A stretch of DNA of 64,000 bases from Polytrichum commune (Eukaryota > Streptophyta > Polytrichopsida > Polytrichales > Polytrichaceae). Location: the NCBI GenBank assembly GCA_950295325.1, contig OX485806.1, forward strand, positions 434,001-498,000. Reading direction: 5' to 3'. Position numbers and translations under genes: made by a program. This document shows positions 2,794 through 36,374 of this stretch, in pieces (within the stretch, counting starts at the first letter, position 1; the number at the start of each line of letters is the position of its first letter). The notes below the pieces were generated by a model, which saw only the letters and a program-made list of their open reading frames with translations, ran no database searches and was not told the DNA's origin.

Positions 2794-2821
2794 AACACTA
2801 TATTCGTTATTTGGAGACTTT
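2794..2821 (+). repeat. Left terminal inverted repeat of the giant element
   Basis: These 28 bases match the reverse complement of 36347-36374 exactly. TATG at 2790-2793 is the presumed target duplication. A second short similarity (GAGAC with AT-rich spacing) follows inside. Confidence 0.75.
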
Positions 2822-3127
2822 TTGTTAATTTTGAGACTATTTAAGGACGTGGCTTTCACATTTATAGGAATGAAAACACTACAAATATGCTATGTTCCCA
2901 ATATGGAAACAAATATGAAACTCAAATGCATGTAATTACACATATAAAAATAGGGAAATGGGACAATTACAACATTTGCATATAGGAAATCGATATCATA
3001 TTCATTGAAGAGGGTCAAAATACAAAATGCAAGTGGAATATCCACTATTAGGCCAAAGCCCTAGAAACACAAATCCACATCTATATGTATTTTAATATAG
3101 CCTATACATTTGGACCATGAATAGGCG

Positions 3128-3463
3128 TCACTCTTTTGTTTTTGAAATACTATTATTAGCCTTTGCGGCCGTTTCTTTTTCTTTTGCTTTCATGGCGTCT
3201 ATGGCTCTAAATATCTCGGCTCCGCGACTGTAACCTTGTTTATTCCCATTCCCAACCCTCGAATATATGCCATTTTCCCATATTGGCCGACCCCCTACCG
3301 AATAAGTGGAATACGAACGCGTTTGGGAAACCGAATGTCTTGCACTCTTTCGTAGGGCCAAACAACGATCAGACTCGCAAGTCGCAGTCTTCAGTGTTCG
3401 CCTATCCAATGACGGAGTGGAGGATTCACGTCCCACATCCATGTATATTGGGGTCTGAAACAA
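3128..3463 (-). CDS. Hypothetical protein near the left end of the giant element
   Basis: This open frame of about 111 codons on the minus strand ends in a Lys/Glu/Ala-rich, probably helical tail (AIDAMKAKEKETAAKANN). Its middle is Ser/Arg-rich with SVGGRPIWENGIYSRVGNG. I do not recognise a family. It lies downstream of, and on the same strand as, the FCP1-like exons, so it could be a final exon of that transcription unit or a small separate gene. The first ATG may not be the true start. A TTACGGATG motif related to the element's palindromes lies just upstream at about 3503. Confidence 0.35.
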   Translation of the reverse strand: MFQTPIYMDVGRESSTPSLDRRTLKTATCESDRCLALRKSARHSVSQTRSYSTYSVGGRPIWENGIYSRVGNGNKQGYSRGAEIFRAIDAMKAKEKETAAKANNSISKTKE

Positions 3464-3561
3464 TGACCATAAATATATATAACGACGTGGGTTAGTATAA
3501 GTTACGGATGTAAGTCCGAAAAACCCAAGAATTTGAAATGCACTAAATTAATATGCGGACA

Positions 3562-5177: not shown

Positions 5178-6593
5178 AGGGAGGCATGCTCAAAGGTTGA
5201 TTACCTCTTCAGCGGTGAGTTCCTCGCCGGCAGTGCCTCCCTCACCAGGCCCAGTTGCGGGGCCAGGTTCCGGATGCGCGTCCGTAAATTCGCCCTGCGT
5301 GTCTTCCACCACCAACAAATCGGCTCCACCTGCTTGCGACGCTTGCGTGCCGACGAAAGGTTGATCCTCATGCGAGGAGTCTTGGCCCCCCCGCATATGT
5401 ACATCTTCATCGGCGAGGGGGGCGTCGCCGATGTTGACATCTTCATCGTCTCCTATGGCGGGAGGGGAGGGCTCTGGAGCGGCAGCAACCTGGGGAGGGG
5501 GCGGGACAACCAACGCGGGGGCCGTATAGGTGTGCTCCGGTATGTACACCGTGTGGCTGCTAGAAGGAGGGCGCACCAGAACGGGGGGCACGGACATGGC
5601 GGGCTCGGGAGCTGCATACACCACCTGGGGTCTTGCCTACAAACTTGCCATCATGCTCATGAATTGTTGGCTTTGAGCCAAGAATTGTTGATTTTGAGCC
5701 ATGAGGTCGGCGTGCCTCCGAGCAGACTCCAACCTAGCTTGCTCCATCTCAGCTTGGATGGCGGCCATCTTCCTGGCATGCTCTTCGTTGGCCTCCCGGA
5801 GCCGCATGTCAAGCTCTTCCTTCATCCTCTTCTCCATCTTCTCGTCCAGCTCGGAGACGGACATGGGCTCTCTCTTCACCTTGCCTGGCTCAGAAGGCAA
5901 GGCGGAGATGGAAGCGTACAGCCTCACCTCATCCTCGTCTTCATCTGAGAGTTCCAAGACGGCGCCTTCGGGGTATTCGTTGTAAGGTGTCTTGTTCCTC
6001 TGCCGCCGGCTTGCACGGTAGGAGTCGATATCGGGCCTCGATATCAACTCTAGCATATCTCTACCTTCCATGGGCGGGAGCGCCGCCTGCTCACTGGGCT
6101 CTCCCCCACCAGAGGACGCCGTGCATCCGGTTTCTGCAGCAAGGTCCGCATCCCTCTCCGCCATAAGCCTTGCAGCACGAGATGGGCCCACAGTGGAAGG
6201 AAGCCCAACTCGAGAAGTGGGAGTCCCAAAGGGTGATAGACTAGGCGTATTATGAGGCACCCGAATTGGAGTGACGTTGGGCTGCGCCTCCTCTGCATCC
6301 ATGTTGTCTTCACCCAGGAGATACGCCACGCGATCCACTGGATGACGAGCAAGACCACGCAAGTCTTCCTGCCTGGAGGGCTGTCCCCTTGGAGACATTG
6401 GATCATCGTCTCCATCGCTACCCCACCCACCTGCATGAGAAGGCTCCTCTCTAGAGGCAAGAGGAACAGCAGGATGTGGGGTAATGATATCCAAGAAGTC
6501 ATTGAGATCCATTTTCTCTGCAAGCTTCCTGTGATCTTTGCACTCATCCATGTCGCCAGCCCCCACAAACGAGTTAACCTGCAACCCAAGCAT

Positions 6594-6865
6594 CTGCACC
6601 AAATAAAAAAAGTTAGTGGATTGTTGGTATCAAGATTGAATTGACGGGGCAAATGGACATACAAACATGATGCAGTGTGCATTTTACGGACGTACGTCCG
6701 TAAAATACACACTGGTTTAGGTTTGATAACTTTACGGCTGCGCGGCCGTAAATATGCATTGCAGCGCGGCCGCAAAGTTGAAATGAACTAGGTGGTTACA
6801 CTTTACGGTCGCGCGGCCATAAAGTTGCATCAGGTGGAGGCATGAAAGTTTTTTTAAGTACTTAC
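6594..6865. repeat. Intron packed with four variant palindromes
   Basis: Copies lie at 6681-6706 (a perfect 26-bp palindrome centred on GTAC), 6731-6752, 6761-6777 (half copy) and 6801-6824. In the last three the core drifts to GCGGCC. The stretch is bounded by a GTAAGT donor and a TGCAG acceptor of the DGQH gene. Confidence 0.8.
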
Positions 6866-8185
6866 CAATGCCGCATAAACAAATTTGGTCCCCCCGAAGA
6901 CGTTGTACACTGTCTCACTCATCACAGTCACAGCCTTCAATACTCCTATGTAAAAGTCCATTCGGAGCTCGGTTGCCGGGCAGATTGCGAACATCGCCTC
7001 GTCCATTAGCTCCTTGGGGTGTGGAGGCGGCAACTGGTAAATTTTCTTGAACACGCTCTTCGCCTTTATAGGCAAACGCCCACTTGGCGAAGACTTCCGT
7101 GTCAAGAAATAGATACATATAGCGCCGACCTGCTTTACCCCCCTTGCTTCTTCGATGACGGCGATGCCTTCCGTCTTCGCGGGGGCGTATGTGCTGTGGA
7201 AGATATTGTATTCGAGATCCATCGTCGAGTTGTATAGGTCGACGACCGCTGCGGATCTCTCTTGGTCCACAATCCACAGCCACACGTTTGGCTCCAGAAG
7301 TGCAGGGGACCGAAAGCTCTTGAAAGCTTTCAGGAAGCTGTCGTAGAAAGGGGTCCCCGGAGGAGGTTGTTTCCAAGAATTTGGAAATGCACGGAAATCA
7401 AAGATAGCAAAAGGACAACCCCGGGGGTCATCTCTCACAGTGGCCCGCGAAGCATGGGTGTCCCACTTGCCGAACTTCAATTGTGATGTCACAGCGCAAA
7501 ACCTCGCGACACCCTCGAATTTGGCATTCTTCTTTCTATCGAGGAAGTGTTTATACAAAGTTGTCTCCCTTTCGTCGATAGAACCTTTCTTCTCGTTCTT
7601 CCTTGAGCGCTGGGCCAAGAACGGAGATGTTGCTCTTATCAATGCCTTCATTGAGACGCCATTGATGTGGTATGCTATTTTCAATCCCCTCCAGTTGTCC
7701 CACACAATGTCACCATCTGCATCTGTAAGGTTGTAGGCGGGTACCAATTTGCCTATCTCCCTCATAGCCAATGTCTTCTTCTTCCTGTATTCGCACCATT
7801 CCTTAATATGGTACGTTGAAGGCTTCATAAACCTTGGTCGTTTGAGGAAGATTTTTGGATACGGCGCTGTCCTTCTCGGAGTCTCCTTAAGAAGGTGTTC
7901 TGCCGCCTTGTAAAGCTCGGCATCGAGCAACCCTTGGAGGGGACGGAAAAACTCTCTGAGGATTGGAGGCACCTTAATCTTCAGGTCCTCTTTGTACTTC
8001 TTCTCCGTCTCAAGGTTGATGAGTTCTCCGTTGCTGTGTGCATGGAAGACGCGCATTCAGATAGCCCAGGTCTTACCCAACGAAGTGATGAGCTTCAGTT
8101 CGCCCTTCAGATCTTGCACTGTCTTCATGCCGCTTTGCTTCATGTCAATGCTTGAGAACTTCGTCACAATCGCACTGCTGAATGC

Positions 8186-8339: not shown

Positions 8340-8622
8340 CTGCCATTTGGGATTCTTGACGACTGCGTTGTCCCTCTCTTTTGGTGGACAGCCGTGCTCC
8401 TCCCACAAGGTCCTACCAGCCACGATGTTGGCTGCCCATGACGCCTCAAACGCTTTGATTTTGTTTGTCTGGTTGAGGAAGGCAGATATGGCGATGAGCT
8501 GATTGGAGTCCTCTGAATGCACGAGAAGTGCCTTCCAATATCGGATTGTGGGTTTCAGAGGGCTCTTCCGATTATCGTCTACGAGGAGAGCTTTTGCCGC
8601 TTCCACGCTATGCTGGCCGTCC

Positions 8623-8630
8623 ACGATGTA
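8623..8630. repeat. Left 8-bp target-site duplication of the hAT element
   Basis: ACGATGTA here is repeated exactly at 24113-24120, on the other side of the element. Eight-base duplications are diagnostic of hAT transposition. Confidence 0.95.
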
Positions 8631-8639
8631 CAGGGTTGT

Positions 8640-8715
8640 CTATTGTGTCGTGACGGAGGGTAATCCCGACATAATGTCGTGCCGTCACGACACGTATCCG
8701 TCACGACATTATGCC
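8640..8715. repeat. Subterminal inverted-repeat cluster at the hAT left end
   Basis: TGTCGTGACGG, CATAATGTCGTG, CCGTCACGACA and CGTCACGACATTATG occur within 75 bases and can pair into alternative hairpins. The same block is kept in the 531-bp copy at 55960-56035. Confidence 0.8.
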
Positions 8716-8865
8716 GGATGCTGTCTTTATCCTGACGGACTTGAATTTTACCGATTTTTTTGTGTAATTACATTAACCCATTTCTGACACGTAGGATTTA
8801 CAATGTCCACGTGTGATGACATGTCAGCAAAGTAAAGGTAAAGTGGGGAAAATTTTACTAGAGCC

Positions 8866-9571
8866 CGTCCGCCCCCCCGTCCGCCTCCGTTCCCAACCCC
8901 CGTTCGCCCCCGTTCCCCCCCGTTCACAATCCCATTCGCCACCGTTCCCCCCCGTCCGCTCCCGTTCCCAACCCCGTCCGCTCCCCCGTCCGCCCCACCC
9001 CCGTCCGCCCCCCCCCCCCCCCCCGTCCGGCCCCCCCCTCCCCCGTCCGTCCGCTCCCCCGTCCGCTCCCTTGTCCGTTCCCCCCCCCCTCCGTCCGCTT
9101 CCCCGTCCGCCCCCCCCGTCCGCTCCCCCCCCCGTCCGTCCGTTCCCCCTTCCGCTCCCCCGTCCGCTCCCCCGTCCGTCCGCTCCGTCCGCTCCCCCGT
9201 CCGTCCGCTCCGTCCGCTCCGTCCGCTCCCCCCCCCCCCCGTCCGTCCGCTCCCCCCCCCTCCGTCCGCTTCCCCGTCCGCCCCCCCGTCCGGTCCCCCC
9301 CGTCCGTCCGCTCCCCCGTCCGCTCCCCCGTCCGCTCCCTTGTCCGCTCCCCCGTCCGCTCCCTTGTCCGCTCCCCCCCCCCCCTCCGTCCGCTTCCCCG
9401 TCCGCCCCCCGTCCGCTCCCCCCCCCCCCCCCCCCCCCCCGTCCGCTCCCCCCCCCCCCCCCCCCCCCCCGTCCGCTCCCCCCCGTCCGTCCGCTCCCTC
9501 GTCCGCTCCCCCCCTCCGTCCGCCCCCCCGTCCGGTCCCCCCCCCCCCCCCCTTCCGTCCGCTCCCCCGTC
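8866..9571. repeat. GTCCGC/poly-C array, left end of the hAT element
   Basis: About 700 bases consist of repeated (C)n-GTCCGCT units with poly-C runs up to about 20. The array lies between the TIR and the transposase promoter. Long open frames on both strands here are low-complexity artefacts. Confidence 0.9.
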
Positions 9572-9577
9572 CGATTC

Positions 9578-9830
9578 GAATACTATAAATTGAGGGTTCA
9601 AGGTGCCATTTTTGCCTCCACTGACATAGTGTGTCTCAAGTCTTTTGATTCTCCTTTGAGGAGTGAGGAGTGAGGATTGAATGCGTGAGACCCGAATGCA
9701 GAGGATACTTTGTCCAATCTAGTGACTGTGAATTAGGGTTGCCCTTGTGGCACTCTTGAACAGGACCTAGTATGCGATCAAAGTTACTTGCTCTAACTTG
9801 TTTGTATTTGCAGGTTTTGTTGAAGTCATG
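9578..9830 (+). promoter_or_regulatory. Promoter and 5' leader of the hAT transposase gene
   Basis: ACTATAAATTG at about 9580 is a TATA-box candidate directly after the C-rich array. TTGTATTTGCAG ending at 9813 looks like the acceptor of a leader intron. The first ATG of the transposase frame is at 9828. Confidence 0.5.
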
Positions 9831-12800
9831 CCACGCCGAAATGATGCATGGGATCATTGGTACGAGGATAAGGGGATGGTTCCCGGTAAATCACAAAGGC
9901 AGGTTAAATGTAGGTTTTGCCCGTTCGTCATATCTTACCGAGGAAATAGAATGTTGGCCCACCTTGGTTATAGACCTCCTGTAGGGGGTGCTTGTGATGT
10001 TTCCACATGTAGGATGGTACCCCCGCATATTAGGGTCTTGTTTGAACATTGCGGAGGCATTGTGCCCTTACATGTAGGCATTGTAAATGAGGACTCTCCG
10101 GTGCCAGATATTGTACCTCTGGAGCCTATTATAGCGGACTCCGTAATTAGTGAAACAAAGCCTTTGCTTATGTCCCAATCCACTCAACATTCTGATGTTG
10201 TGATATATGGCACACCTCCTCGTGAACTACGTCAACTCAACATAACGGAGGGGTTCAATGTGTCAACAAAACAACTCCTTGATAGAGCATGGGCAACGGC
10301 TTTTTATGAAGCTAACATTCCTTTCAACATTGTGAGACATCCTGCATTTGTTCATGCTGTGCGTGAAACTGCCTGTCATCGAATGCCAGCCTACACACCA
10401 CCATCGTACAATGCCATCCGTACGAAGTTGTTAACTGATAAAAAGGTTGACCTAGATAGGCAAGTGAAGGAGAAGATGGGGAATTCCGTTGAAAAATACG
10501 GTGTTACAATATGTTGTGATGGATGGGACAACGTGCAAAACCGACCTCTCCTAAACGTTCTCCAATGCGGCACAAAGGGAGATGTTTTCTTGGGTACCAT
10601 TGATACCACGGGAAATCACAAGGATCATGTATACGTTGCTGCTCAAATTCAACCATTTGTGGAAAAGGTTGGTCGACATAATGTGGTCTAGATTTGCACC
10701 GACAATGCCCCAGTTATGGCCTCCGTTGCTCGCGACTTGATTCAAGCAAATCCCGATCTATATTTTCAAGGATGTGCTGCGCATTGCCTAGATCTCCTCT
10801 TAGAAGATTGGGGGAAGGAGGAATGGGTGAAAAAGTTGGTAAAAAAGGCGCGCCATATTTGTGTTTTTATCAAAAACCATCATGCTTCTCAAGCTATATT
10901 CCGGAGGTTGTCACCAAATCTCTCACTCCGCCTACTTGTAGAGACCCGTTTTGCAACGAACTTCATCATGATAGATCGTCTTCTTCAAGTACGCAATGCT
11001 TTGGAAAGAATGGTGGTTGATGAGGATTGGCCTACTCTAATGCGTGATATGAGGAGGAGATCTCGCACCTCTTACATGAAGGGCTCTGCTGTGCGAAGCT
11101 TTATACGTTCTGATGGATTCTGGAACACGTGCGAAAATTTCTTGTATATGGTGATCCCGGTTGTTAAAGCTCTTCGTGTATTTGATGGCAAGGCGCCTGC
11201 AATGGGAATGGCTTGGAGGGTCATGCATGATTTACAAACCCATATTCGTGGATTCAGTAAACCTCCATTTTGCTTAAGCCCTGAGCTTGCTGCAAATGCT
11301 ATGCTAATGTTTCAAAATAGATGGAGGTTGATGTTGAATGATCTACATTGGGCTGGAGCGATGTTAAATCCGCTTCTACGTGGTTGGGCCCCACTCCATG
11401 AGGATGAGAATTCGAGGACAATCCTAAATCGAGTTCTTCGCAGGCTTGCTCAAGATGAGGACACTTATGTCCAAATCCTCCACCAGTACCAAGATTTCCT
11501 TGAAAATCGAGGGCCTTTTGCTGATTCTACTGACCCGAACGTGCATGCCGCACCTCTCCATGAATGGTGGGATGCAATGGGAGGTGGAGCTAAAGCCCTC
11601 CAAACAATAGCAAGTATGTTCCGCATCCTTGCACAAGTATGTTCCGCATCCGCATGTGAACGCAATTGGAGCATGTACTCATATGTTCACAACAAGAGTC
11701 GCAATCGCTTGAAGCATAGTCGTGCCGAGGACCTCGTCTACATATATACCAATAGTAGGTTCATTCGACATCGGAGGGGCCCAAGACCTGCGCAATGGTA
11801 CGAATTGAATGAGGTCCATTCTGACGATGACCTTGACGAAGAAGATGACGTGGATCCAAATGATAGTGCCGGAAATGATGATGACAACAATGTTGATGAC
11901 ATCGACTTTGATTTGGATGACCTCAATTCCAAGAATCATGATTCAGAAGATGAGGATGGCAATGGTAGTGATGGAAACCTTGGGGTGTTTGATTTTGATG
12001 AACCGGATGTCCCCCAACATAACGACGGAATGCATGACGATCATGAGGGGTCTATTGGAGGACCGCCTTTTGAAACTCTCCACATTGGACAAGGGTTTCG
12101 CCCTGCCCATAATGTTGCTATGGGGGCAAGTGAGAATGTAGGAATTGAAGTAGATTCCTTGCAACCTCGGAGCGATTCTCTTTCTTTTGGTGAAGGTGAC
12201 AATGTACTACCCGCAAATGAGCCAACGCACGTTCAATAGGATCCATTTCCAGCCCGAGTACATTCTGAATCCATGGACGCCTCCCTCATATCCAACCATC
12301 GTATAGAAGATCAAACGCCCAATGTTCCTGAAATACCTACAACTCGATTCCGTGCTCTTCAAAGAACTGCATCAACCTCTACGGTGCAAGTGCATGCACA
12401 AGGTCAACGTCGTCCTCTCACTCGAAGTATTGCCAATACTTCTAGATTGGGTGTTTCACGTGCAACTGCGGTGGGTGCTACTTTGGTTGCTATACACAAT
12501 GTTTCAAGAAATGTTACTACAGAGGCGCCACGTCGTCATTCTGTTCGTCGACATGTTGTTGAGAACATACCAATTGCAATTCCATCCGCATCAGTTTCAC
12601 TTCCACACAGTCAATCCAATGGAACATGTGGCCTTGGAGTTGGAGGCGGAAGTACAACGGGGGATGTTTTTATAGATGGAAGTAGAGATGAAGTGCACTC
12701 AAGTCGTGGTACGGGTGGAGGGCGTCAGAGAACTACGAGAGGTGTCAAACGTACTAGGAAGAGGTATCAGGGAAGATCGCTTCCGTTTACTGCTGAAGAC

Positions 12801-13019
12801 TACAATGAAGATGAGGGTAGACCACATCTAGATGAAAATGGCATACAGGATGCAGAGGGCTCCCGGCCGACCAAGAAGATAATTTTCTCACAACGTGACC
12901 GAGAGTTGCATCTTCGGAGCGCGACTCCCCAAACGGATGATGATTGCAGCACAGACGAGTCTGAAGAGAACCCAAGATGTGTCGAAGCAAATGATCCCAC
13001 AGTACGGATTCGAACGTAA
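9828..13019 (+). pseudogene. hAT transposase (BED finger, DUF659-like core, hAT dimerisation domain)
   Basis: The N-terminus has a BED-type finger (CRFCPF followed by RMLAHLGY). The core shows ICCDGWDN (first catalytic Asp region) and CTDNAPVMA (second Asp region). The C-terminal dimerisation block is ACERNWSMYSYVHNKSRNRL followed by RAEDLVYI. Highly acidic and Ser/Arg-rich tails follow. Start 9828 follows a probable intron acceptor. The frame is open to 13019 except for TAG at 10689-10691 and at 12237-12239; both fit CAG mutated to TAG. The second could instead be the natural end, leaving 12240-13019 as readthrough, but that stretch keeps coding-like composition. The gene lies at the left end of its own element, after the C-rich array. 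Confidence 0.85.
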
Positions 13020-13718
13020 TGGTTTTGCACAAATGTGGTATTTCGGTGCTCCCACGTACTCCCATAATTTATTACTTACGTCAAAATTGATACAAGTTAC
13101 AACCTTAGGGCCTTCGGTAAGACATTTAGACCACAAAGCGAACGTTACCTTCGAAGTTGTAACATTTTATTATAGTAATAAAATTATTTATTGCATGTTT
13201 TTTAAAATTTTGAAAATACAATATGGTTGGCAACTCAGCATTGCAATTAATGTCCAATAACATGTTATGCCTTTATTAATTACTATTTTGTATAATTCTT
13301 ACTGTGAATGGAGTTTTATGTTTATTTATTGAGCTTCTTAAAGAATATGTTTTTATAAATATTGCAATTCCCTATTGCTCGATTGTACATGCTTCGTTGG
13401 TGACATCCTCTTTTTGAGGACTTTTCTATCCGTTTTATATAATTATATCTTTATGTGGTATTCAATATTAACTATGTAGTCAATAGTACTTTTGGTTAGA
13501 CTATCATATGAATTACTAATATTCAAGTAAGTTTTTACAAGTTTCAAATAACATTAAAACATGTGGCATCCATATGTTATCTTTTACACGATCTTAGAAA
13601 TGACAACTTGTCGGTAAATCCTCTTTATATTACATATACTTTGAACATGAAATATGCTCATTGTGTCCAAAGTCTTCATCCGTTCCTATACAACTTCCTA
13701 AACATGGTACAAAAATGC
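13020..13718. other. AT-rich spacer between convergent hAT-borne genes
   Basis: This spacer separates the plus-strand transposase from the minus-strand RING gene. It probably contains both 3' ends and polyadenylation signals. No gene is seen. Confidence 0.5.
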
Positions 13719-15992
13719 CTAATCCGAATCTGAATCGAGGTCTATTCTAACTGAAGTAGATCCTCGTCGTGCTCGTGATGATTCCCCCGCTTCCATGCTT
13801 CGCGTTATTCCACGGGTGAGGTATGGACGACTACTAGGAGACAATGGAACGGCATTACGTGGTCTAGGCCCACCATTTAGCCATCTCAATACCGCATCAT
13901 CCGCAACTCTATGCAAGAGTGCATCAATTGCAGCCAACTGCAGCATGTTCTTGTGGTACCCCACCTCTAACTGCAATTCATATCTCGGATCCCGTTCCGT
14001 AGGCATGTCATCTGCATCTTCTTCCAAATCATGCTCCGATACTGATTCGAGACCTGCTGCATTGTACCAAGGAGGATGAATGCCTCTCTTTAATTGTCTG
14101 CTGATTGAATCCCAATGCCATTCAAGAGTTTGGTACAAAAATCTTCTCAAGCCATGATCGGGGGGCTTGTTGGAATACAACTCGTCTGCAACATACAAAA
14201 TTTGACGTGCATTCCGTGTCCAGTCGCCATCTCTGTTCTCGTGCCATAGCTCAACCTTGACACAATTGTATAACCAACTCCATTCAACATTCTCCCCATC
14301 AAACTCTTGAAGATCGAAGGGAAAGTCCCATGGCTTTAATACCCAGTCGTTAGGCATGTAATCCCGAAGGCCAAATTGGAGGTACAAACGAGGGTGGAAG
14401 GGTGATCTGCAATGAGGACATTGGCGTTTCTTGATCATATTCTCTATTAGACATTGTGGATGGAATTGGGTCCCACATGATCCAACTTGATAGCATCCCT
14501 CTGGGCCAAATAGACATTGGCAAATCGCACATGCGGTTCCGTCGAAGACCATTGTATGTGGATTTGGCCATAACAACTCATCCCTCATGCGGAATGGATA
14601 TTCATGCACTTCGATCACATCCCAATGGTGATCTGGGTCGGTCACTTGACGCCAATCGATGCTCCCGCTTGGCAATGTCCACTCATTATCCCTATCCCAC
14701 CTACTAGGGTACATCTGCTCATCTTCTGGCCATGACGTGAGCATCATATTCCGCATTCTCTGATTGCGGTTCCATTCTTTCTGGATGCTCTCAAACTCAG
14801 CTTCAAATTGATGAGCCTTGGCCATAGCAAGCAATGTGCTTGTCCTCATATTTTTGCGCTCCACAATCGCATACAACAGAACTTTCTTCAACCTTGCATT
14901 CTGCTCCTCCAGTCCGCCAATCTTGGCTTCGTGATCAACAACCACTTCATTGACCACTTGAAGTTGTTGTTGCATGTCCACCACCTCCTTTTGCAAAGCC
15001 TCTATCTTTCCTCGCATTACTTCATTCCTCATACATACCTCCAAAGCTTGTGACTTTGCAATCTTGGCCTCCTGTAAAGTTGCGTCCCTCTCTGCTTCCA
15101 AAGACTGAAGGTTAATTGGTGTACTACTTGAACTTCTAGCCTCCCCCATCGTAAGTGTTGCAACTCGATTTTCCAACTCGAAAATCATCGTTTTATACTC
15201 ACGAATTTCCAACGCATGTTGCTTACACAATTCCTCCATTCTGCTCTCAGTCGGGTCCGCTCCATGTTCACCAAGGTTTACCTCGTCTAGGACCTCGTTA
15301 ACCACGTCGTTGATCAGGTTGTTGACCTCGACATTTGCCTCCATGCCCTCATCCATATGCTCAAACACCTCCTCGATGGCCATCTCCACGTCATTGGCTG
15401 GTCGTTTACGATTACGCGGTTTTTTTGGTTCCCGACCCTCTGGAATTGGGGCCCCAGGCTCGTCCACTAGTCGAGGATTCCTCCTGAACCACTCCGGAAC
15501 GGGAGTGTATGGAATATCTGGAACTGTGCATTTAGTGAATGCAATTCCAATACCCCCAAATTTTTGACCATGCAGGGTAGCCAAACTTGACCAATCCACC
15601 CTAACTCGCAACACGTGCTCCGCATACATCATACACGCCACCGACTTTGGAATTGCACTTTTGGGCCATCTATCCAAATTGGAGATACTTCTAAGTATCG
15701 TTAGGAATCTCCATTTTGCCTCCACATCATCAAGCTGCATATAACTCGCACTGATGGCCTTGCAGTGTCGCTCGTGACAAGGTCTTGGCCATAACCGATC
15801 AAAGTGAGGGAAGCCCACGTACTGCATTGCAGTCTTCACTGACCACGGTTGTGGTACATTCTCCCAACCTGCCCTGGCTTTTTGGGTGTTGTCATCATAA
15901 ACATCCCACTCCAACCCAGCAGCCTTGCGTACATGTGATCTGTGACAACCTAATCCCCCACTTGCCATGTCTCCAGATCCTCCACTTGCCAT
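13719..15992 (-). CDS. RING-finger coiled-coil protein carried by the hAT element
   Basis: This is an intact frame of about 757 codons from the first ATG (MASGGSGDMASGG), with no internal stops. A Lys/Arg patch (KKPRNRKRP) lies about a quarter of the way in. A long coiled coil follows in the middle (ALQKEVVDMQQQLQVVNEVV and flanking heptads). Then comes a RING-type zinc-binding block: CAIC, GSCGTQFHPQC, QCPHC. The C-terminus is Trp/acidic, then Ser/Arg-rich. RING proteins usually act as E3 ubiquitin ligases; whether this one targets transposase or host proteins is unknown. The frame also extends upstream to 16022 without an ATG. It is the best-preserved gene in the element. The middle GTCCGC array (16445-17035) lies upstream. 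Confidence 0.72.
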   Translation of the reverse strand: MASGGSGDMASGGLGCHRSHVRKAAGLEWDVYDDNTQKARAGWENVPQPWSVKTAMQYVGFPHFDRLWPRPCHERHCKAISASYMQLDDVEAKWRFLTILRSISNLDRWPKSAIPKSVACMMYAEHVLRVRVDWSSLATLHGQKFGGIGIAFTKCTVPDIPYTPVPEWFRRNPRLVDEPGAPIPEGREPKKPRNRKRPANDVEMAIEEVFEHMDEGMEANVEVNNLINDVVNEVLDEVNLGEHGADPTESRMEELCKQHALEIREYKTMIFELENRVATLTMGEARSSSSTPINLQSLEAERDATLQEAKIAKSQALEVCMRNEVMRGKIEALQKEVVDMQQQLQVVNEVVVDHEAKIGGLEEQNARLKKVLLYAIVERKNMRTSTLLAMAKAHQFEAEFESIQKEWNRNQRMRNMMLTSWPEDEQMYPSRWDRDNEWTLPSGSIDWRQVTDPDHHWDVIEVHEYPFRMRDELLWPNPHTMVFDGTACAICQCLFGPEGCYQVGSCGTQFHPQCLIENMIKKRQCPHCRSPFHPRLYLQFGLRDYMPNDWVLKPWDFPFDLQEFDGENVEWSWLYNCVKVELWHENRDGDWTRNARQILYVADELYSNKPPDHGLRRFLYQTLEWHWDSISRQLKRGIHPPWYNAAGLESVSEHDLEEDADDMPTERDPRYELQLEVGYHKNMLQLAAIDALLHRVADDAVLRWLNGGPRPRNAVPLSPSSRPYLTRGITRSMEAGESSRARRGSTSVRIDLDSDSD

Positions 15993-19673: not shown

Positions 19674-19693
19674 GACATGTATTGCAAATATAA

Positions 19694-23179: not shown

Positions 23180-23200
23180 CGGCTTTATATAGGCAAAGGG
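23180..23200 (-). promoter_or_regulatory. TATA box of the hAT-borne kinase gene
   Basis: On the minus strand CCTATATAAAGCC reads as a strong plant TATA box between the right-end array and the kinase leader. Confidence 0.6.
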
Positions 23201-23254
23201 GAGCACAATCATTATGGGATCCCGGTCGGATTTGACATGGGGCACGAAAAGGAC

Positions 23255-24100
23255 GTATGGGGAACGTGGGAACGTGGGGGCGGACGGAGGGAACGAGGGG
23301 GCGGACGGAAGGGAACGGAGCGCGGACGGGAGGGAACGTACGGGAACATGGGGCGGACGGGAGGGGAACGTGGGGCGGACTGGAGGGGAACGCGGGCGGA
23401 CGGGAGGGGAACGTAGCGCGGACGGGAGGGAACATGGGACGGACGGGAGGGAACATGGGGCGGACGGGAGGGAACGTGGGGCGGACTGGAGGGGAACGCG
23501 GGCGGACGGGAGGGGAACGTAGCGCGGACGGGAGGGAACATGGGACGGACGGGAGGGAACATGGGGCGGACGGGAGGGAACGTGGGGCGGACGGGAGGGA
23601 ACGTGGGGCGGACGGGAGGGAACGTGGGCGGACGGGAAGGGACGGGAAGGGAACGGGTGCGGACTGGGGGGGAACGGGAGGGAACGGGTGCGGACTGGGG
23701 GGAACGCGGTAGGGAACGGGTGCGGACGTTAGGAAACGTGTGGGAACGTGAACGCACGGCGGGGGAACGTGGGGCGGACGTGAGGGAACTTGGGGCGGAC
23801 GGAGCCCTCCGCGTTCCCCCCGTCCGCCCCCGCGTTCCCGTCCGCTCCAGCGTTCTCCCCCCCGTTCCCAACCCCCTTCCGCCCCACCCCCGTCCGCTCC
23901 ACCCCCTCCACCGTCCACTCCACCCCCCTCCCCCGTCCGCTCCACCCCCTCCCCCGTCCGCTCCACCCCCCTCCGTCCGCCCCACCCCCCTCCCCCGTCC
24001 GCGCCACCCCCCTCCGTCCGCCCCACCCCCGTCCGCTCCACCCCCCTCCCCCGTCCGCTCCACCCCCTCCCCCGTCCGCTCCACCCCCCTCCGTCCGCGA
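23255..24100. repeat. GCGGAC/GTCCGC array, right end of the hAT element
   Basis: From about 23270 to 23800 the units read GCGGACGGGAGGGAACGT. After about 23810 the orientation flips to CCCCGTCCGCTCCACC up to the right TIR. Open frames on both strands here are repeat artefacts. Confidence 0.9.
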
Positions 24101-24112
24101 TAGACAACCCTG

Positions 24113-24120: not shown

Positions 24121-25119
24121 GAATTCCCCTTGCTTAATAATTGGCCAATGTTCTGCTGTGACCTCCACGATTGGATCCTTTGGGGTCACACATATGGTCT
24201 GCCGGTCAGCTTTCGGGTTGTTCATGATGTTGTTCATCTGCCACCAGACGCCGCTCTCTTCTTGCACCAGAGTATTCATACTCTCGGTGCCCTGGTGGCA
24301 TTTATAAACATCCACGTCAAATGTGAAATACCTGCCCATTGGCCAGCAGGCTTTCATTTTTTCGTCGAACTCTTGTTGAATTTTTGTTGATAGATCAGAG
24401 TTCGGGCGTTCTCCTTTCTTCAGAAGTGGTGCGACAGTAAGGGTGGAGCTGACATCTGGACCTTCGGTAAGTCCAGATGACTCCATCTGTGAATGGGAGC
24501 GTTTACTGGATGGTCTGCTCCCTCTCGATGCTCCACTTTGAGACGGTCTTTATCCTTCCGGGACTCTCTGTGGAACACGCGGTTGTCGTTCAGAAACGAC
24601 TTTCTTCTTCCCTTTCCCCTTTCTGGACTCCAGGACTGCCCCATTCACTCTCGTGACATTGTTGAGGAGTCTTCCAAGCCGCTTACCCGTCCAAGGTGCA
24701 TTGTATGCATAGTCTTGGAATTCAGTTGCCAGATTGAAGCAACCCGCATCCGGGCTGCCATTTTCGCATTCAGCCTTGTGGAATGGATGTTTGTGCTCAT
24801 GAAGAAGAATTGTGACTCTGTCATCTTGTTTTTCAAGATCTATGACGACATAGTCACCTTGGGCCACTGCACACTCTACTGACCAATTTTTAACTCTAAC
24901 TCATTTATCTACATTTATATCTTTCGTCTTCATTTGATACCCAAATCTAAGTACGAATATGTCATTCTCAAGTTTCTCTACGTAAACTGTCCAGTTGTCT
25001 ACTGTGTCTTCGACTGGCTTGTAGTGATCGTTGTGGCTTATATCTTTGATGGCGGGTGGAAGTGGAGGCGGAAGAAACTCAAATGCCTGGTCAATTGCAG
25101 GTCTTTTTGTAGATGTCAT
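24113..25119 (-). pseudogene. DGQH gene, 5' portion right of the hAT insertion
   Basis: The frame starts at ATG 25119-25117 (MTSTKRPAIDQAFEFLPP), directly after a TTTGCAG acceptor. It runs in one frame to GEFYIV at 24113, where the hAT element interrupts it. It resumes at 8630 with DGQHSVEAAK once one copy of the duplication is removed. Two in-frame stops are present: TGA at 24901-24903 (likely CGA) and TAA at 24550-24552 (likely CAA). No other domain is recognised. A basic patch (ESRKGKGKKK) and a Ser/Arg stretch precede the DGQH region. The palindrome cluster begins about 45 bases upstream of the ATG, within the presumed leader and promoter. Confidence 0.65.
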
Positions 25120-25162
25120 CTGCAAATGCAAAAACAATGCTTAGCATCATGATCAATGTCCA

Positions 25163-25796
25163 GTTTACGGACGCGCGTCCGTAAACTTTCCACAGGTTGT
25201 TTTGAATTATAGTGTCAGAATGAACTATCCGAAAAGATTTTGCATATGTCAATACGAAATTTCACATGTAGTTTACGGACGCGCGTCTGTAAACTATCAA
25301 CGGGTAGTTGGGGATGAGAATCTCAACTATGAACAAAGATAAGATTTAATAAGAAAGTTCTAGTTTACAAACGCACGTCCGTAAACTAGTAGTTGGGTTT
25401 ACGGGGTTAGCACTAATTTACGGACGTGCGTCCGGAAACTAGGAATGGGGTTTACTTGGATGTCACTAGTTTACGGACGCGCGTCCGTAAACTAGGAATG
25501 GGGTTTACTCGGATGTCACTAGTTTACGGACGCGCGTCCGTAAACTAGGAATGGGGTTTCCTCGGATGTCACTAGTTTACGGACGCGCGTCCGTAATCTA
25601 GGAGTGGGGTTTACTTGGATGTCACTAGTTTACGGACGCGCGTCTGTAAACTAGGAAAATATACTGTCCATTAGTAATAATATTGTTTTTTAAATATATC
25701 CAGAACTTACGGACGCGCGTCCGTAAGTTCTGGATATATGTTGCATGCTTCACCCACATGGTGCGTCAAAGTTTACGGACGCGCGTCCGTAAACTT
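25163..25796. repeat. Palindrome cluster upstream of the DGQH gene (10 copies)
   Basis: Copies lie at 25163, 25271, 25363, 25416, 25469, 25522, 25575, 25628, 25694-25739 and 25769. Five of them (25416-25651) form a tandem array of about 53-bp period with spacer CTAGGAATGGGGTTTAC. The copy at 25694-25739 is a perfect 46-bp palindrome, and that at 25769-25796 is a perfect 28-bp one. The common core is GTTTACGGACGC plus its reverse complement. Confidence 0.95.
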
Positions 25797-26878: not shown

Positions 26879-27957
26879 CACTACAAGAAAAAACGGTTCC
26901 GTTCCAACAGAGTTCCAACAAAATTCTGTTGATTCTACCTGTTGATTCGGAACTCTTGATTCGGAACAATTTTAACACATATCTCTTGATTGAGGCATTG
27001 GTTAAATGTCCAAGTTATACTAGTAAAAAAGATAAAAAATCTGTAATTCCGCTACTCACATTCCAAGCCTATACACCTACTACCAAGGACCGCCTTGCCT
27101 AGGACCTAGCCACCTACCTAACCTAGACTAGGGGCAAGGGTGAAGGCCAAGGGTATTGATCCTTAAACCTCTTGGCTACCGCAAGGAGGCCTTAGCCACT
27201 AAGCCACCACTCATCACATGATGTACAATGAGTATGTAAGACACTTGTATAAAGAGGCCGTAAAATTTATAATTACATAGATTACATAATTACATAATTA
27301 CATAGATTACATAATTACATAGATTACATAATTACATAATTATAGTAATTACTGTAATTACTGTAATTGTTTTTATTACTATAATTAGTTTAATTTCTGT
27401 AATTAGTTTAATTAGTCATTTCTGTAAATATTTTAATTAGTAATTTCTGTAATTACTTTAATTAGTAATTTCTGTAATTAGTTTAATTAGTATTTTCTGT
27501 AATTATTATTTCTGTAATTAGTAATTATTGTAATTACTTTAATTACTTTAATGAATAAGTACAATAATTAGAGTAATTGCTAATTAGTAATTACAGCTAC
27601 TATAAATAGAACAAAATTACAATCATTCACAATTTACTATAATTTTAAATTTAAGTAATTAAATAATTAAATATTGCAAATTAATCAAACTATTTAATTA
27701 TTGTAAATTATAGGAATCATAGTAATTGATTACTTTAACATAATTAGTGTTATTTAAAAATTAAAATACAATAATTAAAATTCCTCTGTTGAAATCAACA
27801 GATAAATGATCTTCCTCTGTTGAAATCAACAAATAAATGTTCCCTCTGTTGATTTGTGTCGCACAATGGATCCATTTCAACATTGTTTTTCCCAAATCTG
27901 TTGAAATCAACAGAAATTAGTTGATTTTATGTTGATTCGGACTGCGATTTCTTGTAG
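26879..27957. mobile_element. CACTA-like non-autonomous element
   Basis: The left end is CACTACAAGAAAAAACGG and the right end TTTCTTGTAG (the last two bases of the expected TTGTAGTG are missing). GCG flanks both sides (26876-26878 and 27958-27960), fitting a 3-bp duplication. Inside are several CTGTTGAAATCAACAG palindromes and a TAATTACATAATTACATAGA microsatellite (27270-27360). It has no coding capacity. Confidence 0.65.
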
Positions 27958-29817: not shown

Positions 29818-31836
29818 TGAACAATAATGACATTCATGTTCGGTTTGGATGAATTTGCATGTTAATCTCTTTAATTCTTGGAGGACATAACTCTCGTTCG
29901 TCACTTGAGGTCATCCTAAGCCGGTATCAATAACATAACCTCGAAGTGCGAGGCTTGGAAGAAATTTCACCATATTTTGAGAAGAACGACATAATACTAT
30001 GGGTTGAGGGTTTAGGATTTAAGGGGTTTAGCATGAATGCAAGTCTAGAACCTAGGGTGAGCATTCAACTACCCTACTTCTTGTAATCATGAGGCCAAAT
30101 TGCTTGCCTCTCATTTGAGAGTTTTAATGATAAAATGAGGTAGTGGGGGATGTCAATCCAACTACACTCTTTGGAATCTTGTGTCAAGAGTTCTTGAAAA
30201 TGTTTGTATTTGTTTGGAGTTATAAGCTCTTATTTCATACCATCTAATAGGGTTGAAGTCATATGCCTATGATATTATCTTGCACAACATTACGAATTAA
30301 TTCAATCCCTTTGAACATAGGTCTAGTAAGCTTGTATTAAAAGTGCACGCAAGGGTATGTATTGAATTTACATCCCTCTTGTACATTAAACAACCATCGG
30401 GATTCATTGAATCCTTCCACGAGCTTGTATATCACCTACATCAAGTACTAGCAAACTGTTTTTTATTCTAGAGTTTTGTTTCCATGGTGACATGGATTGA
30501 TGTGTTAAGTACTCCATTAAAGAATACCAATTAATATATATGATCTTCAAAACCTTTCATCAAAAGTATATGTTAAGAGCAAATGGCTAAAGCTGGCTTG
30601 GAACATAAATATTATAATGATCTTCAATGTTTCGAAGCCTTAATTGTTTTCATATTTGTATCCCTTCATTTCATTTTAAACTTGGGGTCACATCAAAGGA
30701 TAACAAGTCCCAGCTAAATCTTTTACTTGCATGTAAGGGGTACATTTCACCCAAAAAAAGTAAGATTCAAAAAAATGAAAGTTAGGGTTACACAACCCAA
30801 GTTTTATGGCTCTCATTGAAGGATACCAAATGAAGATTTTGTACATGACAATTAGAATTGTTATTGACAGTTTCATGAATATTTATTCAATGTCATATAC
30901 TTTTTCACCACTTACACCATCTTGCAAAATAATTGGTGTTGTTCAATAACTAAGAATGCTTGCAACCAAACCCTAAACCCTAAACCCTACCTAGGTCCAT
31001 AGATGTTCTACTTTCATGGCCTTACGGAAATCAAAGTTTCTGTATGTATTAATAATATTATGTGTAGGTGGGGAAATTAAAAGGGTTGGATGGTAGGGTG
31101 GTGGCCGATTGTATTACAATATTAAATGCAAGATGAGAGGAGAGAACATGATATTCTAATATCATAAGATTGTATGCAAAACAATTAAATAGTTGCTAGA
31201 TTATTTCCGAAGCACATATATTTTTATAGTCCATGGACTACAAATGTTGTTGTGGTGGTTGATTTTTTATACGATTCTATAATTTTTTGTCCACAAATTC
31301 TACAATGAACTCTTAATATTGGGTACTCCAATAATATAAACCCCCCCTCAACAATGTTTATTGCTCATATAATATTAACCAACTTGCTTTGTTGTACACC
31401 ATAAATATATAGATGCCTTTTGCTTTGTCATTATGTGGAGTCATGGTCAAATGCATGTTGGCCGCCATGAATACACATTCCATTGCAAGGCTGGCATTCT
31501 CCATGTTGGAATATTAGGTTTTTGTTTTTAGGAAATAGTTGGCGGCTAGTATCCTATGTTGAAGAAATGATCCAAGGGAAGACGACGAATACTTAAGGGA
31601 AATCCCCCCACCAAGAGACTCTTTTTGCATCTCAGATGTGGGTTGCGCTCTTGAGACCCTTGTAGTGTGGTGGATACTTGTTTCGCGCAGGTATAGATCC
31701 TATTGCAATGAACCTATTATACCCTAAACCCATATTCGATTTGCACTATCTGGATCTCTGAATGCGATGGATTCTATTTCTGACAGGTATTGTTCGCGCT
31801 GCAAGGGTCCTATTATGACGCCGCAAATTACGGAAC
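29818..31836. other. AT-rich DNA, degraded repeats
   Basis: No gene is seen. Positions 30162-30246 repeat 29563-29645 (TTTGTATTTGTTTGGAGTTAT core), so part of this DNA is a duplicated fragment of the neighbouring element. 30530-30660 resembles 63740-63860. A short telomere-like CCCTAAA run lies at about 30968-30988. Confidence 0.45.
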
Positions 31837-32575
31837 TTTATGGACGCGCGTCCGTAAACATTACATCTCTTGACTTATTTTCTTATTGAATATCTCATAT
31901 CTTATTGAATCTCTCAGTGGCTCGTTGCATCATTGAGTATCTCAATCTATTTTCATTGGCTCATTGAGCATTTACAAGTAGGTTTACGGACGCGCGTCCG
32001 TAAACATGCATCCTTTTGGTGTCACATGGTGGTATGTCATCTACAATGTGGGCTGTGAATTATTATCTATTTTGATAGTATGCATATTTGTTCTGATGAA
32101 TATTTACGGACGAGCGTACGTAAATCTTGAACCTTTTGCATCTGTTCTAGTAATGAGGTAAAGGTAGGTTTACGGACGCGCGTCCGTAAACATACAAACC
32201 TCTTGCATCTGTTCAAGTAATGAGGTAAAGGTAGGTTTATGGACGCGCGTCCGTAAACATACAAACCTCTTGCATCTATTTAGTAATGAGGTAAAGGTAT
32301 GTTTACGGACGCGCGTCCGTAAACAGACAAACCGTTGGTACACATTCAAATACATTACTGGTAAGGCCAGGAAGTAAAATTTAGTGTAAATGTAAATGGG
32401 GTTGGGACTTCTTGGTTCCTTGCAACCCTATTTGTTTTGGACACAATTATCATTTGACATAGGGATGTTTACGGACGGGCGTCCGTAAACATACATTGTC
32501 TAATTTGCCAAGACGTTTGCACCTAACCCTGACATCTCTTATCAGATAATGATTTGCGGATGGGCGTCCGTAAAC
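31837..32575. repeat. Palindrome cluster upstream of the DUF7869-like gene (8 copies)
   Basis: Copies lie at 31837, 31982, 32102, 32168, 32235, 32301, 32467 and 32552. The four from 32102 to 32324 are tandem with a period of about 66 bp and spacer AAACCTCTTGCATCTGTTC. The last copy is about 50 bases before the ATG. The layout mirrors the cluster in front of the divergent DGQH gene. Confidence 0.95.
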
Positions 32576-32627
32576 ATACACTGCTTATGTTTTATCTCAT
32601 TCTTCATTTGGCTCTCTTGTAGTGGCC

Positions 32628-35600
32628 ATGGATTCCGACGTCGGTGATAGTGCGTCCGATTTCTCCTCGGAACCGTCAAGCTATGCTAGCGAGTTTGAAG
32701 ATGTCGTGGAACATGAAGCTACAAATGGTGTGGCCGATGCAGATGATGAAATCATACCACCATGTGAGGGTTATTCGCGGGAGCAGTGGGTTGATCTTGA
32801 TGTTGTACTACTTAATGCATGTGCCGTTCCCGTGGCCAACGGTGTTTGTAGGAACTCGAATCCAACGGATTGTATTGATGCAAAACCCTTCGGGGAGGAC
32901 GATGTTGGGGTGTGCATATTGAACTCCTTACTTCCATTGGAAGTGCCTCCTGGTTGGAGGTTCTCTCTCCGTCGATGGCCTTTGCGAAGTGTTCATCACG
33001 ATGGTGTGAGCTTCTGGGATCAATCCCGCCGATTTGAGCAACTGCAACAGTCTTTGTTCGCCACAATGCGTCCCAGACAAGGTCGTCGTAAATATGATTC
33101 CGTTCGTGTGCCTCGTGAACCCACGCAGCGTCGTCGAGATCATACATTGGGAGACACATCTATTAGGTCCGTAGCCACGAAGGATTGTTGTGCGAAGAAG
33201 TGCTGCCAACTATTTCCCCGTGACAAAATCAAATCTTTGAGGCAAGAGATGTGGCTTGCCGACTTTCGTATGCGGTCTGCCAAGAAACTTGAAGTACATC
33301 GCAACATGCACTTGGATGCCGGAGGTTGTAAGGTTGTGACCTTGGAAAATATAGAAGTTTGTTGCCGGGCATGGTACATTATTCATGCCGTTTCAAAGGC
33401 AGATTTTTATAGGTTCCGGAACTACTCGCTGCAAGGAAGGCGTTCTCGGTTCCATGGCAACTCAGGTACAAAGAAGCCCAAGGAGGCAACACTGCAAGCG
33501 GCTGCAACTTTGTCAACCATCATTATGCCATTAGCGGATGCAATGCCACACAAGACACGCACTTTGCCGTCGGGGGAAAAGGTTGTTCAGATGGTTTTAT
33601 CCACAAGGACAAAATGGAAGAACATACTCGTGGATGTTAATGAAGTTGGTGAAAATGTTGGATGTGGGCCGATTTCGTTGTCAAAATTGAGTGTGATCAA
33701 GAATCAACAGTTCACTGAATACATTACGAAGAGACCCGGGGATAAGTTTGCTAGGTGTTCTACTTGTGAAAAATATAAAGGCCTTCGAGACGTACATCCA
33801 ATAAGGACCGAGTCGCACACCAGACATCAACAGAAATACATTGAGCATGTCAACAACCAGGAGGCACACCGTCAAGACTACTACAAGAATCGCGCCTTAT
33901 CAATAATGAGGCCGAACGAGGTGTTGACAATCATTCATGACAAAATGGACCATGCGAAGACCGCTTGCCCTTGTTATGTTCGGAAAATAAAGGCCACATA
34001 TGGATATTTCAAGCTGCCAATATCTGTCACAGGTTCGTTGGTTTTCATTTTTTTGGCGTGCCCACATACTCATTTTTAAGAGTTACGGATGCGCATCCGT
34101 AACTCGTCTGTGCATGGTTGTTCCTTACTTGCGGCAATATCATATTTCCTTCATATATATGATATTGGAATGTACTTCTCATTTGTATGTCTTAATTCAG
34201 GTATGATTGCACATGGCCATGTGGACGTCAAGTATGCACATTATGGTTTGGATTTCTATCCAGACGACGCCAATCATACCGTAGGGTCTTTTGCAAAACT
34301 TCTACGAGATCTTGAGAGTCCGCCAACATCATCCTCGCGTGCTCTTTTTGTTGGATGTGGAACAACTCCAATTTATGAGGCTGTGCTAGAGGGGAAGGAA
34401 GTTTGTCTATCTTCACTTCAAGAACCGCCTGAACAATCCGTTCTTGCTAAACCTTTGCCTCGAACTCTACACGTGCAACTTGACAATTGTGCCAAAGATA
34501 ACAAATGTCGATACGTGTTTTGTTTTTAGTCATTGCTGGTAGCCAAGGGCATTTTCAAAGAAGTGTTTGTGTCTTTTTTGATGGTTGGCCACACGCACGA
34601 TGACATCGACGCTTCATTTGGACGTTGGAGTATGAAGTTGCACGAGGAGGATTTTCCGACAATTCCTCTTCTCATGAAATCATATATGGATTTGGACAAT
34701 GTGCCAGTCATTCCACATTTGATTGAAGAAGTGCCCGATTTCAAATAGTTTATAAAACCATTAATTCTTAAGGGGTTTGACCGACTAGTGGGCCACACCA
34801 AGGCTCAACAATTCCGATTTTATATGCGTGATGATGGTCTGCCCGCCATGCAATTCAAAGTTTTGTGCACTTCCCCGAATTGGGGTCCGGAGGAAGGGAT
34901 ACTCATTTGGCGCAAAAACGAAGATGGCAAATGTGTGCTACCTGATGGTGAGCCGAAGCCTTGCACACCCAGCCCCATGAGGAATGGGCCAGAAATCATC
35001 AAAGGTATATCCGGATTTATTGAGTATTGGAAAGAATTGTGCGAGGAAAACATCACAAGACGTGTTAGGGATACCCACGAACCATTGATTGCGTATTGGG
35101 ATCGCATTCGCACGGCATTGATAGCACCCGATGTTGATACACATTCATGTTAGACATAAGGGTTTTGGCCACAAAGTCGAGTGACAGTCGTGGAATCTGA
35201 GGCCATGTTGTTCAACAATGGGGACGTTCGTGAAGAGTTCGCTGCGGACGATCATTACGTTGGCCATGCTCGCAATCGACCGGAGCCGTCGTTTCGTGTT
35301 GGGGTTGATTGCCACGAAGGTTATTTGCTGCTCGTACGTGCTGGGGATGAGGAGCATCCCAAGCCAATTTGGTTGGTGAAAGCATTGTCATCACCAAACT
35401 TTGTTCCAACTAGTCCAAATTTTTGCCAAATTGAGGTGGAATATTGCCGTCCAAGCACCAAAGATCAAAATGTGCTCCGGACATATTTAGGGTGGGACAC
35501 CAAAAAAGGTTTCAAATGGACAATGGACTCATCATACGAACCGGTTTGGATAAACACAGATACCATACTTTGTGCTTGGAAACCACGCAAAGGTTCGAAA

Positions 35601-35729
35601 TCAAAGACAATGACCATCCTGCAAAAACATATAGATTTTGCCAAAGACAACTTGGCACGTATCGCAGCTGCAGAAAACGATCTTGAAAATGGAAATGAAG
35701 TTGAAGATGAAGATGAAGAGGGGGAATGA
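32628..35729 (+). pseudogene. DUF7869-like protein, candidate transposase of the giant element
   Basis: The start ATG at 32628 sits in a good context (GCCATGG). The N-terminus is acidic and Ser-rich. A Cys-rich block follows (DCCAKKCCQLFPRDKI), then FARCSTCEKYKGLR. The C-terminal core carries IIHDKMDHAKT, LHVQLDNCAKDNK and MVGHTHDDIDASFGRW. This is the spaced Asp pattern seen in DUF7869 proteins and compatible with an RNase H-like DDE fold. One phase-compatible intron (34033-34200, CAG/GTTCG to TTCAG/GT) holds a palindrome. All exonic sequence is in one frame, interrupted only by TAG 34527, TAG 34746, TAG 35151 and TAA 35157. The tail is acidic. Calling it a transposase is inference from position and motif pattern. 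Confidence 0.7.
34080..34105. repeat. Palindrome in the intron of the DUF7869-like gene
   Basis: A perfect 26-bp palindrome with the variant half-site GAGTTACGGATGC. Confidence 0.9.
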
Positions 35730-36346
35730 TATTGATGTACGTCGGGACCAAAGTTAGTTGAAATGTGTATTTGTTTGTCATTAATATATGACATTGGGGT
35801 TGAATATTATATTAGACACATTTTATAGATTACAACTAGTATAATATTATTGCATGACTGTATTGATTTACGGATGTGGAATCACCCTTCCCATGCGCTA
35901 TCAAATGTTTTCTAGTATATGTTTATATTTACGGATGTGGAATCCAAACTATTTAATATTGCATATTATGTTAATTTGTAAATTCTAATTAACATTGTCA
36001 ATTTATTTTAAGTATTGTTGCAATTGGGATGTGCCATTCAATTCAACCACAATAGGCCAAGAGCTTTATGTTTCGGATGCGCATCCAAGAGTCAATACAT
36101 ATAAAATTAGATGGCTATTTATGGATTCATTACTTTTGTTCAACACAATCCCAAAAAAACCAAATAATCGTGTAATTGTGTCATTTGATTCTCATCCCCA
36201 TACTTACTATATTTAGTAATATATAGTTCCATCGCATATGGATTTCTAAAACATTATGATGTAATTGTTCCCGATGTTCCCGATGTTCCCTACGTTCACA
36301 ATATTCGCATCCGAAACTATGGGTCCAATTTATTTTGAGACTTTCC
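35730..36346. other. Right subterminal region of the giant element
   Basis: AT-rich with no gene. TTTACGGATGTGGAATC occurs twice (about 35868 and 35929) and CGGATGCGCATCC once (about 36075); these are relatives of the palindrome half-site. A GATGTTCCC triplet run lies at about 36270. Confidence 0.6.
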
Positions 36347-36374
36347 AAAGTCTCCAAATAACGAATATAGTGTT
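36347..36374 (-). repeat. Right terminal inverted repeat of the giant element
   Basis: Exact reverse complement of 2794-2821, followed by TATG at 36375-36378. Confidence 0.75.

Follow-up and report, generated by a model that had tools for sequence, protein, structure and literature searches.

The window analysed here, a 64,000-nucleotide part of contig C4 of the moss Polytrichum commune, contains at positions 2794 to 36374 an interval that is bounded by 28-bp terminal inverted repeats (TIRs) and flanked by TATG on both sides. Its features are listed in Table 1. Three genes were found between the ends, i.e., a NIF/FCP1-type phosphatase gene and the DGQH gene on the minus strand and a DUF7869 gene on the plus strand, together with palindrome clusters and two nested insertions. 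A first-pass annotation of the window had described the interval as a single 33.6-kb DNA transposon. Its flanks, its near-CACTA but non-canonical ends and its DUF7869, DGQH and FCP1/NIF-like content have all held up, but its "two-gene unit" comprises at least three genes.

The genome searched comprises 408 Mb in 64 contigs. The exact 28-mer end occurs 83 times (39 plus, 44 minus) and its reversed control not at all, which places the perfect 28/28 match between both ends of the window copy beyond chance. Ends with at most three mismatches in 25 bp number 2,031, again with a control of 0. When neighbouring plus and minus ends less than 60 kb apart were joined, 21 pairs with spans of 16.5–43 kb were obtained, 15 of which span 16.5–18.4 kb. 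All pairs were checked for target duplications, and identical 4-bp duplications without an evident common sequence were present in 20 of the 21. Besides TATG in the window copy, they read TAAG, GTGT, AGGA, CTGG, ATTA, ATTG, CCTA, CTTT and ATTT in nine pairs (read by eye) and GAAT in one further pair, while in the ten remaining pairs nine duplications match. Both the additional copies with the same ends and the 4-bp duplications at several loci, for which the first-pass annotation had proposed a search, do therefore exist. The right halves of five copies are 97.8–99.2% identical in all ten comparisons (aligned pieces of more than 700 bp), so that this family, called family 1, appears to have spread fairly recently.

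An empty site was sought with the two window flanks joined by one TATG, and 40 of the 871 candidates were scored. A paralogous empty site is located on the same contig (C4:518230-518719), with 92% identity over positions 28–494 of the query and unbroken across the joint. Base by base, the 61 bp printed to the left of the joint are identical, as are 58 of the 59 bp to the right, with one TATG between them. Nine more of the scored places, with 71–81% identity, also span the joint; two of them were read and are more divergent, one having a gap just past the joint. The paralogous empty site shows that the interval inserted as a whole at a single point, in the form of one unit, and grew later. With its inverted ends, its empty site and target duplications of constant length at numerous loci, the element belongs to the class II DNA transposons with TIRs.

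The element itself is smaller than the first-pass size of 33.6 kb. Four other copies (among loci L039-L046) resemble the window internally at about 98%. In their alignments, window positions 2794–8630 are followed directly by the sequence from 24113 on, the two parts overlapping by 8 bp, and positions 26879–27957 are missing from all four, the corresponding aligned gap being longer in L043. Since the intervening hAT element and the 1.08-kb insert are thus nested, the unit element in the window is about 17.0 kb, as in most other copies, and around half of the 33,600-bp interval is nested DNA. The larger insertion has an 8-bp duplication, a hAT dimerisation domain and CAGGG ends, which we take to be a hAT end motif. 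The smaller insert begins with CACTACAAGAAA and ends with TTTCTTGTAG, lacking the usual final TG, and is presumably of the CACTA type.

Table 1. Features of the element and of the DNA nested in it (window positions).
Feature	Position	Strand	Remarks
Left target duplication TATG	2790..2793	.	Single TATG in paralogous empty site
Left TIR, 28 bp, AACACTATATTCGTTATTTGGAGACTTT	2794..2821	+	28/28 reverse complement of right end
NIF/FCP1-type phosphatase gene; window copy with open frame of 259 codons	4092..4871	-	Pfam NIF 3.6e-14; family-3 homolog
DGQH last exon, approximate limits, split by stop in window copy	5190..6602	-	
DGQH second exon, 440 codons, one stop in window copy	6866..8185 (C4:440866-442185)	-	98% to copy L039
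DGQH first exon, 3' part, VDGQHSVEAAK motif	8340..8630	-	Mapped from copy L039
8-bp duplication ACGATGTA of nested hAT	8623..8630, second copy 24113-24120	.	
Nested hAT, 15.5 kb, TIR CAGGGTTGTCTAT, outside unit element	8631..24112	+	DUF659 and hAT dimerisation domains; missing from 4/4 other copies compared
DGQH first exon, 5' part	24121..25119	-	Mapped from copy L039
Cluster of palindrome TTACGGACGCGCGTCCGTAA, partly 53-bp tandem array	25160..25796	.	
Nested 1.08-kb insert, CACTACAAGAAA end, GCG on both sides, outside unit element	26879..27957	.	
Second palindrome cluster, partly 67-bp tandem array, upstream of DUF7869 gene	31833..32577	.	
DUF7869 first exon, IIHDKMD motif	32622..34032	+	Limits by eye
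DUF7869 intron, palindrome at 34080-34105	34033..34200	+	
DUF7869 second exon, VQLDNC and VGHTHDDID motifs	34201..35729	+	In-frame stops in window copy; open in copy L040
Right TIR, 28 bp	36347..36374	-	Exact reverse complement of AACACTATATTCGTTATTTGGAGACTTT
Right target duplication TATG	36375..36378	.	Single TATG in paralogous empty site

The DUF7869 gene is best followed in copy L040, where it consists of two exons on the plus strand, without stops and with approximately 980 codons; the second exon matches DUF7869 (PF25273) in Pfam at 6.2e-38. The profile has 1,491 candidate places in the genome, and all 150 that were scored exceeded the cut-off, while none of the 14 control genomes scanned gave a match. 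Three acidic motifs are conserved in the protein, i.e., IIxDxMD, DN and GHTHxDxD, and this conservation suggests an acid triad (D-D-D/E) such as RNase H-fold transposases have. The second motif is missing from L073, a family-2 copy, which is taken as decay. A third DUF7869 lineage (L070-L076) has few places in the scored list, and in L074 of that lineage the acidic motifs stand within one open frame. A scan of viral contigs gave 66 pattern matches and no relatives, and PADLOC had no match for any of three proteins. No mention of "DUF7869" was found in the open-licence literature searched, and absence from print is not claimed beyond that literature.

The DGQH gene of copy L039 has three exons of 430, 440 and approximately 464 codons, with one stop in the first exon and the motif VDGQHSVEAAK. 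In the window copy, the nested hAT interrupts the first exon. As stops occur in DGQH as well as in DUF7869, and DGQH is split in this way, the window copy is probably inactive. The NIF gene, which has one stop in L039, is located on the same strand as DGQH and nearer to the left end. Its active-site motif reads DLNG in the window family and DVNG in the second family described below, instead of DxDG; plant NIF-like proteins with a non-DxDG motif of that kind exist. A search of Protein Data Bank (PDB) sequences with the NIF protein alone gave no match at 0.001, and the rows of a PDB profile search with DGQH were at chance level. By eye, DGQH exons 2 and 3 have a methyltransferase-like look (NVFGGTKFVYAEL...LGLQVNSFVG, with a degenerate DPPY), which is unsupported by Pfam, NCBIfam and PDB sequences.

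Pairwise ratios of non-synonymous to synonymous substitution (dN/dS) are low for the three genes. For DUF7869, values of 0.08, 0.16 and 0.11 were obtained between more distant copies, a further comparison being saturated; for DGQH, they are 0.09 for exon 1, 0.13 for exon 2 and 0.31 for exon 3 (with other, more distant copies); and for NIF, the value is 0.19 against the 85% subfamily. As seven of the eight comparisons thus fall between 0.08 and 0.31, all three genes look as if they have been maintained by selection. Along the element, the subfamilies (L047 and L049 on one side, L045, L039 and the window on the other) diverge unevenly, with a synonymous divergence (dS) of 0.38 for NIF and 0.87–1.47 for the DGQH exons, different copies having served for different genes. 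This unevenness suggests recombination between the two subfamilies.

A second family, called family 3, has ends that are unrelated to those of family 1. They begin with ATGGGG (ATGGGGATATTAAC..., 89 places with at most one mismatch) and have the form ATGGGGATATTAACTAAAATGAG[A/C]CA. The DUF7869 proteins of both families are 46–49% identical (four rows). Ten family-3 pairs of 22.0–27.7 kb were examined, seven of which have exact 4-bp duplications. The one family-3 element that was read (C3:7181164-7206209) contains NIF, a DGQH homolog and DUF7869 in the same order and orientation as in family 1. Its NIF homolog is 33% identical (tblastn 1e-26, Pfam NIF 1.9e-10), and its DGQH homolog, a protein with the motif VVNGQHTLAAC, matches the family-1 protein with a BLASTP value of 2e-6 (a single comparison). 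The case for linking DUF7869 to the 4-bp integration, and for counting the helper genes as part of the system, relies mainly on the duplication length and gene set that two families with unrelated ends have in common.

Each family also has its own GC-rich palindrome, TTACGGACGCGCGTCCGTAA in family 1 and CCCACGGGTGTTCACCCGTGGG in family 3. In a pattern scan of one copy (copy A), 19 dyads of the CGGACGCGCGTCCG type with at most one mismatch were found; 18 of them are located outside the drawn exons, although 46% of the element was drawn as exon. The longest perfect dyads have 46 bp; when the 17-kb sequence was shuffled base by base, a mean of 0.25 perfect dyads of at least 16 bp was obtained (20 shuffles). 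The family-3 palindrome has a different sequence, CCCACGGGTG(TT/AA)CACCCGTGGG; ten are present in L108, and a variant stands between the DUF7869 exons of L078. TTACGGACGCGCGTCCGTAA has 1,026 exact copies in the genome. Among the first 50 matches listed, 41 are located inside a listed end with no more than one mismatch and not over 17 kb from it, eight at 20–29 kb from such an end, and one has no such end among those listed. The palindrome family that the first-pass annotation had called private is largely so. The palindrome core CGTCCG is also the repeat unit of arrays in the nested hAT (8861-9573, 16458-17041 and 23268-24092), which may be a coincidence or may reflect a shared host factor.

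Altogether, the element is best read as a large land-plant DNA transposon that carries several genes, moves by cut-and-paste and spread recently. It has a unit of about 17 kb, 28-bp inverted ends and 4-bp duplications without evident site preference, and DUF7869 would serve as its transposase and DGQH and NIF as helpers; the probability of this reading is put at roughly 0.8. The DUF7869 protein is the probable transposase because it accompanies the ends and the 4-bp duplications in two families. It would cut at the ends through a D-D-D/E triad and join them to the target with a 4-bp stagger. The DGQH protein, possibly ParB-like, and the NIF-type phosphatase, the conservation of which is observed, would act as helpers. 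The family-specific dyad motif in introns and intergenic parts is probably a binding site for an element protein, and may act as in the VANC anti-silencing system. According to the available part of PMC5735166, VANC21 lowers methylation in Arabidopsis and binds motifs that are specific to a family and stand in introns and between genes, often as tandem arrays. VANDAL elements resemble the present element in carrying an extra conserved gene and in repeating short family-specific motifs, some of them as tandem arrays, across introns, intergenic stretches and the non-coding DNA near the ends; the motifs of the present element are long palindromes. It is the placement of the motifs that is alike. 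By analogy, the remainder of a VANC-like system may be present as well.

If this is correct, DUF7869, a domain of unknown function, would be the transposase that mobilises an abundant plant element, and a CTD-type phosphatase and a ParB-like protein would travel in a transposon under selection. The palindromes would add another example of motif arrays that are specific to an element, next to those of VANDAL/VANC. At 1,491 DUF7869 candidate places, the family-wide share could amount to several percent of the 408-Mb genome (an estimate).

Several observations weigh against this reading. Among the copies examined in full, none was seen with all genes open, L039 and L040 having stops in DGQH and NIF. 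The flanking 4 bp do not match at C4:8945685-8967844, the sole exception in family 1 (one of 21), and exact duplications are missing from three of the ten family-3 pairs, one of which differs by one base while two mismatch. AlphaFold gave a poor model for DUF7869 (mean predicted local distance difference test score, pLDDT, 42.9; predicted template modelling score 0.37), Foldseek returned 243 matches with this model at E ≤10 and none at E ≤0.001, and a profile search of PDB sequences with DUF7869 gave no match. The AlphaFold model of DGQH is unusable (pLDDT 30.7). No ParB domain was found in the DGQH proteins by Pfam or NCBIfam, and their ParB-like character is suggested by the motif and by two weak hits to the ParB-like PHROG 1033; for the family-1 protein (E 0.05) it is the only weak match, and for the family-3 homolog (E 0.25) it ranks second. 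Regarding the palindromes, copy A has one of its 19 inside an exon and L108 one of its ten inside an open frame, and no GC-rich palindrome was found in L109 and L086, nor in the mostly coding family-1-type loci L079-L082, L084 and L085.

As to its superfamily, the element is a giant relative of Sola, or else it belongs to a superfamily without a name. That it is a giant multi-gene branch of Sola, with DUF7869 as the Sola transposase domain under another name, has close to an even chance. Sola elements have a DDD transposase, 4-bp duplications and very variable ends, some exceed 15 kb, and they occur in the moss Physcomitrella (PMC10741241, in the part available); Sola2 has AT-rich 4-bp duplications (PMC3627910, likewise in part). 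The present element shares the variable ends, the moss occurrence and the occasional size above 15 kb. Its 4-bp duplications are seen in 20 of the 21 family-1 and seven of the ten family-3 pairs, and the predicted acid triad of DUF7869, with an Asp-rich last motif (GHTHEDID), can be set beside the DDD transposase. However, most Sola elements measure 2–9 kb, and NIF-type and ParB-like genes and family palindromes go unmentioned in the available part of PMC10741241; the comparison was made with the description of Sola.

More tentatively, the element may represent a superfamily that has not been described, made up of giant DNA transposons of plants (17–25 kb) with a DUF7869 transposase, 4-bp duplications, a ParB-like protein and a NIF/FCP1-type phosphatase as obligatory helpers, and parS-like family palindromes in non-coding DNA that would be read by the element's own protein for anti-silencing or transposition control. 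In the available part of PMC4455052, the Repbase superfamily table of 2015 contains no superfamily named after DUF7869, which does not settle novelty.

A divergent CACTA/EnSpm element of the CMCT clade is improbable. The ends do contain CACTA after two As, the element is a large plant element with short inverted ends, and CMCT lineages have duplications of 2–5 bp and mostly CA..TG ends (PMC12730594, in the part available). However, the two As belong to the element, as the 4-bp flanks are identical in 20 of the 21 pairs when these are counted in, and the ends of family 3 read ATGGGG. Transposase_21 (PF02992) has no match in the six scanned stretches of L039 and L040, compared to 643 candidate places elsewhere in the genome, of which 150 were scored and all 150 exceeded the cut-off; DUF7869 is found in its stead. 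A separate CACTACAAGAAA element is moreover nested within the window copy. CACTA/EnSpm membership proper was rejected on the AACACTA ends, which are not exactly CACTA/CACTG, on the duplications of 4 bp instead of the 3 bp given for CACTA in the available part of PMC10741241, and on the lack of Transposase_21.

Ginger does not fit either. The 4 bp observed here fall within its duplication range of 4–6 bp (PMC10741241, in the part available), but Ginger has TG...CA ends, inverted repeats of 40–270 bp and a Gypsy-like integrase, whereas the present ends are 28 bp and begin with AACACT, and no integrase was found in Pfam scans of the main open reading frames. KDZ and other transposons with TET/JBP genes likewise carry a non-transposase enzyme, but a different one, and KDZ groups have duplications of 7–8 bp (PMC12730594, in the part available). 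Finally, two separate small elements with ends facing by chance, which the first-pass annotation had named as the finding that would overturn its proposal and which the other elements between the ends might suggest, are refuted almost with certainty by the 21 pairs of 16.5–43 kb, the internal likeness of about 98% in four other copies and the empty site for the whole interval.

Besides its DUF659/hAT transposase, the nested hAT encodes one protein that resembles RING-finger proteins (13719-16022, Pfam E 4.7e-5) and another that resembles protein kinases (21300-23123, Pkinase 4.4e-6), both below the cut-off. Both internally and close to its ends, it contains C-rich arrays of CCCGTCCGC / CCCGTTCCC. 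A short element at 55951-56481 has the same ends as this hAT (CAGGGTTGTCTAT...ATAGACAACCCTG) and is 93% identical to it over the first 245 bp; it is a probable non-autonomous derivative. Outside the element, a disease-resistance gene of the TIR-NB-ARC-LRR type is located on the minus strand at 41132-45763, in three open frames.

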